A DNA stretch of 32,890 bases from a virus. Each line of letters starts with the position of its first letter. The first letter of the stretch is position 1. Below are positions 13,194-31,407 of the stretch, piece by piece. The position numbers and the translations under genes are program-made. The stretch lies in the IMG/VR virus record IMGVR_UViG_3300025324_000024, positions 1 to 32,890 of that record. The stretch is one strand, 5' to 3'. Below the pieces are notes generated by a model. It did no database searches. It was given only the letters and a program-made list of their open reading frames with translations, and was not told where the DNA came from.

Positions 13194-14702
13194 TCAACTC
13201 CATTGTCCACCGCCTCTCTGATACGCCGGATGTACCGCGCTCCCGCTCTGCTTGTAACCGATCTCCGGCGCCACCTTGCGCGCGAACGTCAGTACCAGAG
13301 CGTCCGCGTCATCTGGAGAGTCCTCACCACGGCCCGTGATGTCCTTCTTTGACTCCAACACAATTTTACCACTGGAATTGTGGTGCATTCCAGGCACACC
13401 GAGCTGGTTCCCCAAGAGGTCCGAATCGTCCGGTATGCAGCCCATCTCCAACCATTCTTTGCAGCGGCCGTACATGAAACTGCGCATATTCAAAAAGTGA
13501 TCGTCGGTCGCCGGGTCGCCGAAGTTGATCGCAAACACGTTCTTGTGACCGAGCATCTGCAATCGCGCGACGATCTCAGCGCCGAAAGCAGCGTCTACAA
13601 ACATCGCGGCAATCCTGCGCGCGGGCGTGCGATCGCTCAGAAGCTCCGCGACCTTGCCGACAAGCACACCAGGCGTCCGCGCGACCTCACCCATGATCCT
13701 GACGGGCGGAATCGAGCGCGCATCGAAGCCCCTACGGTAGCGGATTACGTTCCACGCGGACCCGCCGCCTGAAACGTCGAAGCCTGCGATCAGCGGCTCA
13801 TCGGGCATAGCGACGCCGTGCCACTCTCGATTCTGAGCGGCCTTGATACGCTCACCGTCGATGTACTGCAATTCGTTCGTCCGCGGTGGAAGCCCGAGAA
13901 CACGGACCCGGACGAAGTCGGAATCTTCGCCGTAGTCCTTGATCCACTGCTCGATCAGAGTTTTGTTTGTGAACGCTGAAGTCCTGGAGTCCACGCGCCT
14001 GGTGTTCCAGAGATTTCGTTCGCTCCCGAAATTGACGCGGTAGAACTGACCCGTATTTCGTGCGCACTGGCCCCAGGCGAACATCATCGGCTCGCCGTCT
14101 GTCATACCGCCCATCGCGACCTTCCACACTTCATCGGGAACATGTGACGACTCATCGAAGATGTAGAAGCTGGTCGAATTGATGGCGTGCTGGCCGGCAA
14201 ATGACTGAGCGTTTTCCTCTTTGCACGTTTGCAGCTCCACCTTCCAGTCGTGCGGAGAGACCTTGTGGTAAATTCCATCGGCGCGGATTTCAAACCAGTG
14301 CGCTGTTACGCACAGTTTCGTCCATCTGCGCATCGCCGCCCAGGTGCGGGATTTCAACTGCTGATAGGTGGAGGCGGTTACCGTACCCATAGAATGTGGA
14401 CGCGTTGAGAGAATCCAATTCCCTAGCCACGCCGCCAATGCAGACTTGCCGGTGCCATGACCTGAGGTTTCCGACATCAATATCGGCATCACTGGATCCC
14501 GCCCGTTAAACTTGCGGCGGCGCACTTCTTCTCCAAGCGATCCCAAAAACTCACACTGGTTCGTATCGGGCCCTCTGAAGCCATTCAATTCGCCCTCACC
14601 CCACTGATAGCCCCACAAAACAAAGCCCAGAGGGTCGGCGTAGAAGCGCGCGAGTTCATCGCAGAGTGCTAAATCGGTTTCAGCCCTAGGAAATTCGACC
14701 AT
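13194..14702 (-). CDS. terL: Terminase large subunit
   Basis: 502 residues; P22 gp2 is 499. The ATPase part shows Walker A SGHGTGKS (80-87) and Walker B FYIFDES (179-185, D183/E184). The nuclease part shows the RNase H-like acidic set: GFDVSGGG (D309), MFVDAAFG (D370) and DSPDDADALV (D464-D467 region). It cuts concatemers and pumps DNA through the portal. Only one ATG fits (14700-14702); its ribosome site is poor. The downstream zinc ribbon overlaps its last codons in signal but not in frame. Between it and the terS candidate lie two unrelated genes, which is unusual. Confidence 0.93.
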   Translation of the reverse strand: MVEFPRAETDLALCDELARFYADPLGFVLWGYQWGEGELNGFRGPDTNQCEFLGSLGEEVRRRKFNGRDPVMPILMSETSGHGTGKSALAAWLGNWILSTRPHSMGTVTASTYQQLKSRTWAAMRRWTKLCVTAHWFEIRADGIYHKVSPHDWKVELQTCKEENAQSFAGQHAINSTSFYIFDESSHVPDEVWKVAMGGMTDGEPMMFAWGQCARNTGQFYRVNFGSERNLWNTRRVDSRTSAFTNKTLIEQWIKDYGEDSDFVRVRVLGLPPRTNELQYIDGERIKAAQNREWHGVAMPDEPLIAGFDVSGGGSAWNVIRYRRGFDARSIPPVRIMGEVARTPGVLVGKVAELLSDRTPARRIAAMFVDAAFGAEIVARLQMLGHKNVFAINFGDPATDDHFLNMRSFMYGRCKEWLEMGCIPDDSDLLGNQLGVPGMHHNSSGKIVLESKKDITGRGEDSPDDADALVLTFARKVAPEIGYKQSGSAVHPAYQRGGGQWS

Positions 14703-14714
14703 GAGACCATAATG

Positions 14715-16553
14715 TCACGTCTCCTGGGCCAGCCTGTACTCGCTCGGCTTCATATCGAACGTCCATGCCAGCGCGCCTAATACCGTTGTTTGATCCGGGG
14801 GAACGCGAATGATGTACTCACGCGCTGTGGATGGACAAACCACCCGCAGCGCAACCATGCGACCTTCGGGATCGTCTGGAAGCTCAATCGCCAGTAGTTC
14901 ATTCAGCATCTCGGTGCAGCCTACGTGCATCGGCTGAACGGAGCTATCGAGAACCTTCGCCCCGCACGCACGCATGAATGAGCCCCTGCCGTTCAACTCA
15001 TCATACCGCTCAATCAGACAGCGGCGCACTTCAACGTTGCGCTCAGCCAGAATCTCAACAGCGGTAGGCTCTTCAAAATAGTATCGCGCTGGCATCCGGG
15101 TGCCGTGCCATGCAAACAAAGAGGAACCATCTGACCACTTACAAAATGGGCCAGTAGCGTTGTGTGGCCGATTTTGGTCATCCACAGTGAGATCGCGCGG
15201 CCTATCGGAAATCATACAAAACTTCTCGTGCATTATCCTTGGGCCGCCGTGGAGGGAAGCTGCCTCCCAGTGCGCCCACCTTGAGTAATCGATCTCTAGC
15301 TTTGCAATGTTACGGAAAAACGAGATATACGAGTCGTACGCGCTCCACTGATTCCCTCCCTGCCACAGCCTGTAAATTTCATTTGCACACCGGAGCCCAA
15401 AAATGGCATGTCTCTTTAGAAGACCTAGCGCTACGGCCTTAAAATCTCCGGTACGCCACCACGCATTGCGCGTCGCATCGTTCATCGCAGCGTCCGTCGC
15501 CAGGCGCGTCGCAGCGTCCGTCGCCAGGCGCGTCGCAGCGTCCGTCGCCAGGCGCGTCGCAGCGTCCGTCGCCAGGCGCGTCGCAGCGTTCGTCGCCTCG
15601 TTCGTCGCCTCGTCCGTCGCCAGGCGCGTCGCAGCGTTCGTCGCCTCGTTCGTCGCAGCGTCCGTCGCCAGGCGCGTCGCAGCGTCCGTCGCATTGAGCG
15701 TCGCAGCCGCAGCGCGCGTCGCAGCGCGCGTCGCATCGCGCGTCGCATTGAGCGTCGCCTCGAACGTCGCAGCGTCCGTCGCCAGGCGCGTCGCAGCGTC
15801 CGTCGCATTGAGCGTCGCATCGCGCGTCGCAGCGCGCGTCGCAGCGTTCGTCGCCTCTCGCGTCGCCTCTCGCGTCGCATCGAGCGTCGCATTGAGCGTC
15901 GCCTCGAACGTCGCAGCGTCCGTCGCCAGGCGCGTCGCAGCGTCCGTCGCATTGAGCGTCGCATCGCGCGTCGCCTCGCGCGTCGCAGCGCGCGTCGCCT
16001 CGAACGTCGCCTCGAACGTCGCCTCGAACGTCGCATCGTTCATCGCAGCGCGCATCGCCTCGCGCGTCGCCTCGTCCGTCGCCTCGTTCGTCGCAGCGTC
16101 CGTCGCCAGGCGCGTCGCAGCGTCCGTCGCATTGAGCGTCGCAGCGTTCATCGCAGCGCCCGTCGCCAGGCGCGTCGCAGCGCCCGTCGCCAGGCGCGTC
16201 GCAGCGTCCGTCGCCAGGCGCGTCGCAGCGTCCGTCGCCAGGCGCGTCGCAGCGTCCGTCGCCAGGCGCGTCGCAGCGTTCTTTTTCCGAAGCCACCAGA
16301 TTGCGCTGGCAAATCCAGCAGAAAACCGTAGGACAAATGGACTTGACACAAATACGATCCGATGGTCAGGCGGCGGCTCCAACTCAGCAGCTCGATAAAG
16401 CCCCTTCATCGCCTCGCGCGTTACGGCCCGATCTGTATCGTCCATAGGCTTCGTACTCATCGCATTGGCGATCCACTTATCAACCCAGGGCTTCAGTTGC
16501 GCACGATGCGCCGCAGTCAAGGAATACTTCTTCATGCTTTTTTTTCTATCCAT
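14715..16553 (-). CDS. DUF6745-type protein with a 67-unit A-T-x-x tetrapeptide array
   Basis: 612 residues; ATG with GGAGA seven bases upstream. Residues 1-90 (AMSTKPMDDTDRAVTREAMK, then ELEPPPDHRIVFVSSPFVL) form the usual N-terminal block of this family: a 'xLST' helix, then 'EPP..IV...SP'. Residues 94-363 are 67 A-T/M-x-x units with one two-residue slip. Residues 364-612 hold the DUF6745 region: GPFCKWSDG, FAWHGTRMP, NVEVRRCLIERY (about 506-517), YIIRVPPDQTT, ALAWTFDMKPSEY. Family members from bacteria often carry other tetrapeptide arrays (such as xQVx) at the same place. No catalytic residues are known to me. It lies between the terS candidate and terL, behind a 110-aa partner gene. The role is unknown. 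Confidence 0.85.
   Translation of the reverse strand: MDRKKSMKKYSLTAAHRAQLKPWVDKWIANAMSTKPMDDTDRAVTREAMKGLYRAAELEPPPDHRIVFVSSPFVLRFSAGFASAIWWLRKKNAATRLATDAATRLATDAATRLATDAATRLATGAATRLATGAAMNAATLNATDAATRLATDAATNEATDEATREAMRAAMNDATFEATFEATFEATRAATREATRDATLNATDAATRLATDAATFEATLNATLDATREATREATNAATRAATRDATLNATDAATRLATDAATFEATLNATRDATRAATRAAAATLNATDAATRLATDAATNEATNAATRLATDEATNEATNAATRLATDAATRLATDAATRLATDAATRLATDAAMNDATRNAWWRTGDFKAVALGLLKRHAIFGLRCANEIYRLWQGGNQWSAYDSYISFFRNIAKLEIDYSRWAHWEAASLHGGPRIMHEKFCMISDRPRDLTVDDQNRPHNATGPFCKWSDGSSLFAWHGTRMPARYYFEEPTAVEILAERNVEVRRCLIERYDELNGRGSFMRACGAKVLDSSVQPMHVGCTEMLNELLAIELPDDPEGRMVALRVVCPSTAREYIIRVPPDQTTVLGALAWTFDMKPSEYRLAQET
15465..16274 (-). repeat. 12-nt tandem array, 67 units, inside the DUF6745 gene
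   Basis: Every unit has a constant GCGACG (occasionally GCGATG) on the minus strand followed by a variable hexamer drawn from a small set encoding RL, DA, NE, FE, LN, RD, RE, RA. Homogeneous 24-nt pairs (ATRL-ATDA) flank a mixed centre. Period is strict except for one 6-nt insertion (an extra Ala-Ala) near plus-strand 15705. The constant hexamer shows almost no silent variation, which suggests recent expansion or sequence homogenisation. All frames stay open through it, giving false long frames on both strands. Confidence 0.95.
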
Positions 16554-16586: not shown

Positions 16587-16919
16587 TCAATCCACGACGC
16601 TGCGGAGCGCTTCCGGCGAATACTCGCGCTGAATACGTACTTTATGTTCACCAGGCGAGAGCGTCACCGGCAGGTGCTCCTGATGCGTGAACGTAGCGCC
16701 TTCAATCCGAATGCCGCTCTCAGAAACGTGAACGAACAACCCATCACCGATCTCCAACACTTCGGCGCGCTCCAAATCTTCAGCAGCGAGAGAGTGATGG
16801 TGGCCAGTCGCTTCGCCATACGCCACCGTTCCGTTATCGCGTTTTTTGCGGTCGCCCGCAGGTAGTTCCGCAACTGGCAGAAACATCACATCGCCTTGTC
16901 TGATTGGCAGCCTTTTCAT
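16587..16919 (-). CDS. RQGDV-family protein, partner of the DUF6745 gene
   Basis: 110 residues; the ATG overlaps the TGA of the terS candidate (ATGA). Motifs: LPIRQGDVMFLPV at the start, YGEATGHHHSL in the middle, and HQEHLPVTLSPGEHKVRIQRE with REYSPE at the end. This is a small beta-barrel-like family that I recall encoded beside DUF6745 genes in actinobacteria and other bacteria. The His-rich GHHH and HQEH pieces could bind a metal as in cupins; this is inference. It is followed 33 bases later by the DUF6745 gene, so the two probably travel together as a cassette. Confidence 0.75.
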   Translation of the reverse strand: MKRLPIRQGDVMFLPVAELPAGDRKKRDNGTVAYGEATGHHHSLAAEDLERAEVLEIGDGLFVHVSESGIRIEGATFTHQEHLPVTLSPGEHKVRIQREYSPEALRSVVD

Positions 16920-17377
16920 TTCGATTCTCCTTTATCTTTCTTCAGCCTCTCGGTCAGAAATTGTTCCATGAACTCGCGACCTTTGCAGAGCCGTTCTTCC
17001 ATCTGCTCCTGTTGAGCTGGATCGAAAGAATGCTCAATCGCTTTCCGCTTCGGCGCGATGTAGGCCGCAAGCTCCGAAGCGGCTCGTACACGAGTGTCCG
17101 GCGAAAGCTTCTCCCGCAACGTCCCATAACAACTCTCGCAGGTCCGCATCAAAAGCCTACCCTTCTTATCCATATATTTCGTCTTACCCACACCGCGACA
17201 GACGTTACAGGGCAAGTCTCCATTCACTGCCTGCGCCAAAAACTCAAATGGGTTACAGCCATACTTCTCTGCAGCCGCCTGCACGTCCCACGTCGCTTTG
17301 TTGGGCGTGCCTTTCTTGCGACCGGCGTTGGGTAAGCGCCGCTGGCCCTTCTGAAACGGTTTGCCTCGTTTTTGCAT
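16916..17377 (-). CDS. Terminase small subunit candidate with inserted zinc finger
   Basis: 153 residues; ATG overlaps the TAA of the gene before it (TAATG). The start NAGRKKGTPNKATWDVQAAA is the phage 'GRKxGTPNK' DNA-binding opening seen in small terminases and related packaging proteins. The helical end (TRVRAASELAAYIAPKRKAI) matches the rest of that family. Between them lie two DnaJ-like knuckles, CNVCRGVG (57-64) and CESCYG (80-85), likely holding one zinc. P22 gp3 is of similar length (about 162). Position upstream of terL supports the call, although two genes intervene. It probably recognises the packaging site. Confidence 0.7.
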   Translation of the reverse strand: MQKRGKPFQKGQRRLPNAGRKKGTPNKATWDVQAAAEKYGCNPFEFLAQAVNGDLPCNVCRGVGKTKYMDKKGRLLMRTCESCYGTLREKLSPDTRVRAASELAAYIAPKRKAIEHSFDPAQQEQMEERLCKGREFMEQFLTERLKKDKGESK

Positions 17378-20506: not shown

Positions 20507-20794
20507 GCTCCTTTTCTCGAATTCCCTGGCGTTGGCGACCGCTACAGGATGCGCTGTGGCTTTCCAGCCGGCCTGCCGTTCCTCTTCGACTGAAGCGAGC
20601 ACCTGACGGCGGCAGTATTCGTACACGCGACGCCCAACCTCTTCCGCGTCGTCAACGTCGCATTCGGCCTTCTGCGAACAGAAAAAGTCGCGCGATTCGT
20701 AGTTGCCCATATTCATCTTATAGCTGTAGGACCGAGCTACCTCCACCCGGCGGCTGGGTTTTCGCTGTAAACCAAGAAGGCGTTGCCATGTCAT
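20495..20794 (-). CDS. First gene of the leftward operon, conserved early protein
   Basis: 99 residues from the ATG at 20792-20794, which has GGAGG eight bases upstream. The frame also begins at a second ATG (20855-20857) one 63-bp repeat earlier, giving 120 residues. The core RRVEVARSYSYKMNMGNYES, RDFFCSQKAECDVDDAEEVG and RRVYEYCRRQVLASVEEE resembles a phage early family that I recall as 'SRSFSxKxNxGNYES', function unknown, found with recombination genes. Its stop overlaps the next ATG. Expression is likely from the leftward promoter at the 37-bp palindrome. Which start is used is uncertain. Confidence 0.7.
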   Translation of the reverse strand: MTWQRLLGLQRKPSRRVEVARSYSYKMNMGNYESRDFFCSQKAECDVDDAEEVGRRVYEYCRRQVLASVEEERQAGWKATAHPVAVANAREFEKRSVAK

Positions 20795-20859
20795 GACGGC
20801 TACCTCCACCCGGCGGCTGGGCTTTCGCTGTAAACCAAGAAGGCGTTGCCATGTCATGA
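20736..20859 (-). repeat. 63-bp direct tandem duplication at the operon start
   Basis: Copy one begins at 20736 and copy two at 20799; they differ at one base within about 62. Each copy holds the start ATG, 20 codons (MTWQRLLGLQRK...) and a GGAGG near its end, so the duplication puts a ribosome site in front of the second ATG. The length is 21 codons, so the frame is kept. Confidence 0.95.
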
Positions 20860-21602: not shown

Positions 21603-22634
21603 GTGGGAAACACATCAATCCAGTGGACGAATAAATCTTGGTCACCGCTACGCGCGCGCGTGCTAGACGATGCTGCTGCCGTAGCAGAGCGGAAGGGCTA
21701 CACGTCGCTCGTTCAAATCGCTGGCAAGATGGCGGGCCACGTCGGACAGCACTGTGAACACCTCTCGGACGGTTGCCTGCACTGTTACAGCGAAACAGAT
21801 CAACACCGCTGCCTGCCGAACAATGGTACGGGTCTGCCGTTCGATCGCCGGAGCCGCGACCTGATTGAGCCGTTCGTAGACAAGAAGATCCTGATGCAGC
21901 CGCTTCACTGGAAGAAGCCTCAGCGTATTTTCGTTGAGAACCAGAGTGATCTGTTCGGCGAGTGGAACACCGATGAAATGATAGACCAGGTGTTGGCCAT
22001 CGGCGCTTTGTGCCCGGAACACACGCTGCAAATTTTGACGAAGAGGGCCAAGCGGATGCTGGAGTACTTTGGAATTTGGCCCGAGCGTCAGGAGCGAATT
22101 GACAACGAGATGAACCGTTGCATGCGCGACATCCCCAAGGGGCGATCCTTCCCGCGAGTCAGCGGGGGGTGGCCGCTGCCGAACGTCTGGCTAGGTGTCA
22201 GCGTGGAGGATCAGAAGACCGCCGATGAGCGCATCCCGCTGCTGCTCCAGACTCCGGCAGCGGTACGGTTCGTCAGCTACGAGCCAGCGTTGGGGCCAGT
22301 GGATTTTAGCGCATGGCTCCCACAATTCAAGTCTGGCTTTTCAGCCTCTCTCAATGAAGCGCCATGGATAGATTGGGTGATCGTCGGTGGCGAATCCGGC
22401 CCAGGTGCGCGGCCGTTCGACATTGCTTGGGCCCGGCAAACCATCGCGCAGTGCAAGGCGGCGGGCGTAAAGTGCTTCGTGAAGCAGCTCGGGGCCAACC
22501 CAATCATGGATCGCGACGATCCACTTGCGCCGGGGGTTTTCATTCCGCCCTATGAGTTTTTGTTCAAGGACCGCAAGGGCGGCAAAATGGAAGAGTGGCC
22601 CGAACATGTACGGGTCCGAGAGTTTCCGGCATGA
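21603..22634 (+). CDS. DUF5131 (phage Gp37/Gp68 family) protein
   Basis: 343 residues. Family signs: SIQWTNKSWSP at the start, the cysteine set C51-x6-C58-x2-C61 (CEHLSDGCLHCYSE), the blocks PQRIFVENQSDLFGEW and HTLQILTKRAKRML, LPNVWLGVSVEDQKTADERI, RFVSYEPALGPVD, then WVIVGGESGPGARPFD and VKCFVKQLGAN. The cysteines and barrel-like spacing suggest a metal-cluster enzyme related to the radical-SAM type; no reaction is established to my knowledge. It is common in phages and often near zinc proteins such as the DUF3268 gene downstream. Start is GTG 21603-21605 with a weak ribosome site, four bases after the previous stop. Confidence 0.85.
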   Translation: MGNTSIQWTNKSWSPLRARVLDDAAAVAERKGYTSLVQIAGKMAGHVGQHCEHLSDGCLHCYSETDQHRCLPNNGTGLPFDRRSRDLIEPFVDKKILMQPLHWKKPQRIFVENQSDLFGEWNTDEMIDQVLAIGALCPEHTLQILTKRAKRMLEYFGIWPERQERIDNEMNRCMRDIPKGRSFPRVSGGWPLPNVWLGVSVEDQKTADERIPLLLQTPAAVRFVSYEPALGPVDFSAWLPQFKSGFSASLNEAPWIDWVIVGGESGPGARPFDIAWARQTIAQCKAAGVKCFVKQLGANPIMDRDDPLAPGVFIPPYEFLFKDRKGGKMEEWPEHVRVREFPA

Positions 22635-31328: not shown

Positions 31329-31407
31329 CGCAGCGTGGGCTGGAAAGGTTACCAGCGGCGGTCTCATAAACCGAGTGATGCGGGTTCGAGTCCCGCCGCT
31401 GCATCCA
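31329..31407 (+). tRNA. tRNA with anticodon CAU (Met/initiator-like or Ile2)
   Basis: A 79-base cloverleaf with encoded CCA. Acceptor CGCAGCG (31329-31335) pairs with CGCTGCA (31397-31403) at six of seven positions, leaving C1 opposite A72, a mark of bacterial initiator tRNA. D-stem GCTG/CAGC with loop containing AAAGGTTA. Anticodon loop CTCATAA (31363-31369), stem GCGGT/ACCGA with a G:A mismatch at its base. T-stem GCGGG/CCCGC with loop TTCGAGT. The three G:C pairs of typical initiators are not all present, so the isotype is open. It is on the strand opposite to the late genes, in a 150-base gap. Confidence 0.88.

Follow-up and report, generated by a model that had tools for sequence, protein, structure and literature searches.

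A hypervariable tetrapeptide-repeat array in a DUF6745 phage protein and its likeness to Tweety gp54

The closest described counterparts of the gene analysed here are the phage proteins Tweety gp54, Che8 gp57 and PMC gp51, which have unique N- and C-terminal parts and carry a 12-bp in-frame repeat encoding tetrapeptides with two constant leading residues; the third codon bases are constant, the first and second bases vary, and the number of units differs between these close phages (48, 26 and 15) (PMC2884959). In Tweety gp54 this frozen-third-base codon rule operates on an AA-x-x backbone (PMC2884959), as we confirmed by recomputing it from EF536069. Tweety gp54 acts against the prophage defences of Phrann (gp29/gp30) and MichelleMyBell, and mutants of it that escape prophage defences have more or fewer tetrapeptides (PMC9262239, PMC8549241). 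According to a review, how the two ends of the protein are juxtaposed may be important (PMC9262239). Repeats within a phage gene are also found, as described in PMC2884959, in variable region 2 of Bordetella phage bbp36, where a 24-bp unit occurs in an isolate-dependent number and the region is dispensable.

The gene described here lies in a window of 32,890 bases, one IMG/VR virus record, and shares the main features of the Tweety gp54 group: in-frame 12-nt units, two constant residues per unit, frozen third codon bases at variable first and second bases, and distinct N- and C-terminal parts. In our interpretation the array is a coding, hypervariable segment inserted between the two folded domains of a phage protein that is accessory and presumably not part of the virion.

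The array, its gene and its relatives

The gene occupies positions 14715–16553 on the minus strand and encodes 612 residues, comprising an N-terminal domain, the array and a C-terminal DUF6745 domain. The N-terminal domain (residues 1–93; 16275–16553, minus strand) is conserved among the phage relatives. The C-terminal part (14715–15464, minus strand) contains a match to PF20530 at residues 440–612, covering profile positions 43–206 of 206 and scoring 73.6 bits, well above the Pfam gathering cut-off of 27; the protein is thus a DUF6745 member, as originally proposed.

The array itself fills 15465–16274 (minus strand; residues 94–363) exactly. Read codon by codon, these 810 nt resolve into 67 units of 12 nt and a 6-nt remnant; Tandem Repeats Finder detects 67.1 copies at a period of 12 over 15468–16278 and, for periods from 12 to 72, gives scores between 497 and 732. 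The remnant, GCG GCT at 15705–15710 (minus strand), is a unit without ACGCGC and is the sole slip in the array, leaving the frame intact. Each unit has the form GCG-ACG-N6 and encodes Ala-Thr-x-x. The first codon is GCG in 67/67 units and the second is ACG in 63, the other four having ATG, so that the constant part, which the original prediction described as almost free of silent change, contains none at all. The third codon (x1) is CGC, GAC, AAC, CTC, TTC or GGC, with CGA twice, and the fourth (x2) is GCT, CTG, GAG, AAT or GAT. Pairs of ATRL-ATDA dominate both ends of the array and mixed units its middle, again in agreement with the prediction. Because the array probably exceeds the short-read length, the exact order and count of units in this record are uncertain. 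A search of viral contigs with an exact 29-base pattern found no near-identical copy of the window. An antisense open frame of 331 residues (15403–16398, plus strand) also runs through the array; frames of this kind are open only because the repeat unit lacks a stop in several frames.

Scans with the C-terminal part of the protein gathered first seven and then about 80 viral loci, together with five loci in bacterial genomes, and yielded 70 usable arrays comprising 1,743 units for statistical analysis. In nearly all phage relatives an A-T-x-x array lies between a conserved N-terminal domain of about 90 residues and the DUF6745 domain. The repeat sequence had been predicted not to be ancestral; its presence at the matching place in these relatives indicates instead that the A-T-x-x motif is old within the phage clade, and it is the codon choice, the length and the variable residues that change. 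More distant DUF6745 members do carry other tetrapeptides at the matching position, as predicted, namely SSLx in phage MW202476 and QLxx in gp38 of prophiGD102-1. Complete A-T arrays range from 6 to 76 units, with a median of 29.5, and one array that runs off its contig has at least 98. At 48 of 87 loci the contig ends inside the DUF6745 gene, nearly always within the array. Arrays therefore break assemblies, and DUF6745 array genes are for this reason probably under-reported.

Some members have no array. The DUF6745 phage protein at L037:4596–5669 lacks one and is thereby a natural control, and Microcystis phages have the DUF6745 gene and its partner (described below) without it; we conclude that the core function of DUF6745 is independent of the array. 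Among 289 genomes of the class to which a Hansschlegelia genome belongs, DUF6745 was found in one, the query genome itself, and a made-up AAxS-type peptide used as a tblastn query with the low-complexity filter on gave no match. Culturable bacteria that have the gene include Hansschlegelia zhihuaiae (locus L089) and Pseudothauera rhizosphaerae (locus L087). Two aberrant forms were also seen. At L016:4470–5696 the array is frameshifted, such that the N-terminal domain and array run into an early stop while the remainder of the array and DUF6745 lie in another frame; the cause may be an error of sequencing, or else an indel in the array that produces an off-state. The arrays of L058 (3642–5669) and L061 are degenerate, with many AIDx or AIxx units, and are perhaps decaying, turnover having stopped.

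Array turnover, residue choice and fold

Local homogenisation and changes in copy number, both anticipated in the original prediction, are seen between near-identical relatives. Contigs L025 and L027 have at least 27 and 20 units, respectively, and no differences in the 6,735 bases outside the array, so that unit number varies between near-identical phages here as it does in the Tweety gp54 group. Contigs L020 and L071 show 34 mismatches in 356 array bases when compared without gaps and none in the 5,720 bases outside; aligned by unit, they differ in length close to the C-terminal end and show further unit differences. Pairs with flank identities of about 80 to 96% differ in unit order, and in some of them the constant codons have been switched altogether. 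As counter-cases, L044 and L045, which are 99.5% identical, share their array peptide, and the degenerate arrays of L058 and L061 are identical. Array change has thus been seen directly in only two very close contig pairs. These comparisons show that relatives differ in array length and in residues 3 and 4 of the unit despite identical surrounding DNA.

The tendency of contigs to end inside the array, where assemblers struggle, raises the question of an assembly artefact. This is very unlikely, given that the frame remains intact over 270 residues between conserved domains, that the matching array type occurs in 70 contigs, and that similar arrays are present in annotated phage and prophage genomes. 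The L020/L071 mismatches, moreover, begin within about 50 bases of the unique flank, inside one read length, and so do not arise from misassembly deep in the repeat. We reject an artefact as an account of the existence of the array.

Across the 70 arrays, the Ala and Thr codons are fixed within each array and differ between arrays, in ten combinations. This is the pattern expected of re-expansion from founder units, and each array looks, from its codons, to have been re-founded from one or a few such units. Changes at x1 and x2, taken together and counted on minimum-spanning connections within the 70 arrays, fall 172 times at codon position 1, 175 times at position 2 and 38 times at position 3 (347 against 38), and comprise 326 non-synonymous and 15 synonymous edges; the constant Ala/Thr columns have 13 silent and 3 non-silent edges. 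The associated p-value, 4e-27, is only nominal, since changes within one array are not independent. The same rule of frozen third bases holds on unrelated backbones, SSL-[GGG/AGG/GAG/TGG] and QL-[NGG]-[GGC/GAC].

Variation concentrated at the first two codon positions resembles the NNC/NNG randomisation produced by a diversity-generating retroelement, which might hypermutate the variable codons. Against this, an RVT_1 reverse transcriptase is absent from 23 records, including the window, in a search that was positive for three control genomes; the A of ACG, a would-be target, is never mutated; and variants also spread as whole units. For the records searched, the array as a retroelement target is largely refuted, and we regard it as the least credible of the readings considered.

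The choice of residues provides a stronger argument for selection than do the codon-position counts. Arrays with third base C have at x1 mainly Asp (27%), Arg (26%) and Tyr (21%), and those with third base T have Asp (39%), Arg (23%) and Tyr (20%). Tyr and Asp cannot be encoded with third base G, and arrays of that type use Arg (27%), Trp (22%) and Glu (20%). Acidic, basic and aromatic classes are all present in 54/70 arrays. Among the 49 arrays with third base C, a single step would give Pro in 44 and Cys in all 49, yet x1 is never either residue; at x2, Pro could be reached in one step in 63 arrays but is absent throughout. Lys occurs twice at x1, compared with 452 occurrences of Arg. The variation in the arrays consists almost wholly of replacement changes, and whichever third base is frozen, the residues converge on acidic, basic and aromatic ones. 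This convergence in chemistry, reached within a constraint that the founder imposes, is best explained by selection on the residues, and the sequences point to selection for an acidic/basic/aromatic set at x1.

For the structure of the array, a length-variable solenoid was among the initial suggestions. In an AlphaFold2 model of the 612-residue protein the N- and C-terminal domains are confident, residues 11–90 of the former reaching a pLDDT of at least about 90, and the array is predicted as long helices at low to medium confidence (pLDDT ∼41–80). The array might accordingly be a length ruler or rigid spacer, a long helix that fixes how far apart the N- and C-terminal domains lie, with the identity of its residues relevant to nothing beyond folding and solubility. 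The absence of Pro and the minor presence of Gly in the arrays are consistent with this, as is the importance suggested for juxtaposed ends in Tweety gp54 (PMC9262239). Opposite charges in neighbouring units (i, i+4) are also more frequent than in shuffled arrays (279 compared with 244 ± 12), although this pairing may stem from block duplication. The confidence of the array helices is limited, however, and Ala-rich repeats are readily modelled as helix; a plain spacer also leaves unexplained the retained aromatics, the near-absence of Lys and the scarcity of silent relative to replacement changes. We consider a ruler possible, if doubtful.

Another reading takes the array as a multivalent sticker-and-spacer chain, with Ala/Thr as the spacer and Arg, Tyr/Trp and Asp/Glu as the stickers that make it self-associate or condense. 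It fits the x1 composition, with its excess of Arg over Lys, and the low model confidence in the middle of the array, but sits poorly with a strict four-residue register whose spacing is altered by one slip only, with the exclusion of Pro, and with arrays as short as six units. This seems to us improbable, more so than a ruler.

The partner gene and the neighbourhood

The gene had been placed between terS and terL. The second part of this assignment holds, a large terminase-like protein (13194–14702, minus strand; PHROG terminase, E 1e-23) being encoded 12 nt downstream. Directly upstream, however, at a distance of about 33 nt, is a gene for a 110-residue protein (16587–16919, minus strand; phrog_27831) that starts MKRLPIRQGDV and is here called QGDV. 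The presumed terS is probably the next protein, of 153 residues (16916–17377, minus strand), which has no named terS match; its PHROG matches are unnamed, and it has none in Pfam, NCBIfam or solved structures. A Gam-like end-protection protein is encoded about 1 kb upstream of the DUF6745 gene. Elsewhere in the window are a 343-residue protein (21603–22634, plus strand) of the unnamed phrog_2045 (E 6e-73), a family that also occurs in three neighbour proteins of the relatives; a 63-bp unit present twice in tandem, the copies matching at 98% (20736–20859); and a tRNA-Met (CAT) gene (31329–31407, plus strand).

The QGDV gene adjoins the DUF6745 gene in 38/38 complete loci, lying upstream of it in 18 and downstream in the other 20, and a QGDV homologue also adjoins bacterial DUF6745 genes that lie beside STM4011–STM4015 genes. 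From this constant adjacency, DUF6745 and QGDV look like an old two-gene unit, with the array an insert into one of its proteins. The QGDV protein has no match in Pfam, NCBIfam or the PDB; its family has conserved GH.H and H motifs and gives the impression of a cupin. At loci L123, L124 and L125, on bacterial plasmids, DUF6745 and the QGDV homologue are found beside STM4011–STM4015 radical-SAM genes. The literature library searched contained no paper on STM4011/4012/4014/4015 and none naming DUF6745.

The proximity of the large terminase gene had suggested that the DNA of the array might itself act in genome packaging, through terminase binding or cutting. Some relatives, a minority, do have a terminase nearby: L013 (about 1.2 kb away), L016, L053 and a few more. 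The commoner neighbours are genes for DNA methyltransferases, helicases, primases, recombination proteins and integrases, and in isolates the gene lies beside an integrase and DNA adenine methylase, RepA, or a DNA polymerase and uracil-DNA glycosylase. With ten Ala/Thr codon combinations between relatives, moreover, no DNA motif is conserved. A packaging role is therefore very improbable, and we reject the array as a pac- or cos-like site, for which conserved DNA beside a terminase would be expected; the neighbours are mostly not terminase genes.

Searches for a molecular function were made with the arrayless L037 protein, whose model is of high quality (pLDDT 89.2, pTM 0.81). A fold search against the PDB had no hit with an E value of 0.001 or lower. 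The best VIA-align result had a Z score of 5.6 and extended over a portion of the C-terminal sheet; in BFVD, the top matches were DUF6745 or unnamed phage proteins. The fold thus gives no hint of enzymatic function. Neither the C-terminal alignment nor the two upstream proteins had a significant match when their sequences were searched against solved structures. The PADLOC defence models and NCBIfam also gave no match; for PADLOC this is expected of a counter-defence gene, yet lends no support to such a role.

A possible role and comparison with known systems

The reading we tentatively favour, by analogy with Tweety gp54, is that the protein is tunable and defence-facing. Unequal recombination or replication slippage would add, remove and copy 12-nt units, and changes in length by whole units would leave the reading frame unshifted. 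Each array would be re-expanded from few founder units, and selection exerted by an opposing partner that itself changes would retain variants at x1. Together with its QGDV partner, the protein may bind or block a component of a host or prophage defence; how many units there are, and of which kind, would then set the reach or specificity of this contact, which the phage could retune quickly.

Arg, Tyr, Trp and Asp are favoured at protein interfaces, which suggests reading the residue set as one of interface hot spots. The array might then be a rapidly rewritable recognition surface, with one contact residue per four-residue unit drawn from an acidic, basic and aromatic alphabet, and with units swapped, added and copied to match changing defence proteins without a dedicated mutator enzyme. 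We regard this more specific proposal as unlikely on balance, though a real possibility; if true, modular recognition repeats would have a phage counterpart in this array, and the QGDV protein would be its obligate partner. More generally, phage genes that change faster than the remainder of the genome mark points of contact with bacterial defences. The finding of arrays that differ between phages otherwise identical over kilobases makes binding of a partner by the array directly testable, and the combination of frozen third bases with variable first and second bases provides a signature for finding more such proteins.

DUF6745 proteins with other tetrapeptides are encoded by phage MW202476 (SSLx) and the Mycobacterium prophage prophiGD102-1, whose gp38 has QLxx units. 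Like the window protein, these contain PF20530 with an array at the matching place, frozen third bases, an adjacent QGDV partner and a small residue set (G/R/E/W). They differ in their constant residues, and the array has therefore either been founded independently or had its backbone changed. The bacterial proteins encoded beside STM4011–STM4015 on Streptomyces, Deinococcus and Methylobacterium plasmids share the DUF6745 region and the adjacent QGDV homologue but lack the array, their middle being non-repetitive or leucine-rich, and they probably belong to a cellular pathway.

Tweety gp54, in contrast, has an Ala-Ala rather than an Ala-Thr backbone and uses G/W/Q and S/Y as variable residues. 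It has no Pfam match at E values up to 1, and hence no detectable DUF6745 domain, so that the functional link is one of analogy: the window protein may work like Tweety gp54, but is not a member of its family. The counter-defence role of Tweety gp54 is experimental, whereas that of the DUF6745 protein is proposed from this likeness. Previously, Tweety gp54 was the one tetrapeptide-repeat protein known to be tunable by repeat number; to this the present analysis adds a broad family on a different scaffold, a codon rule shared by several unrelated backbones, and convergent residues.
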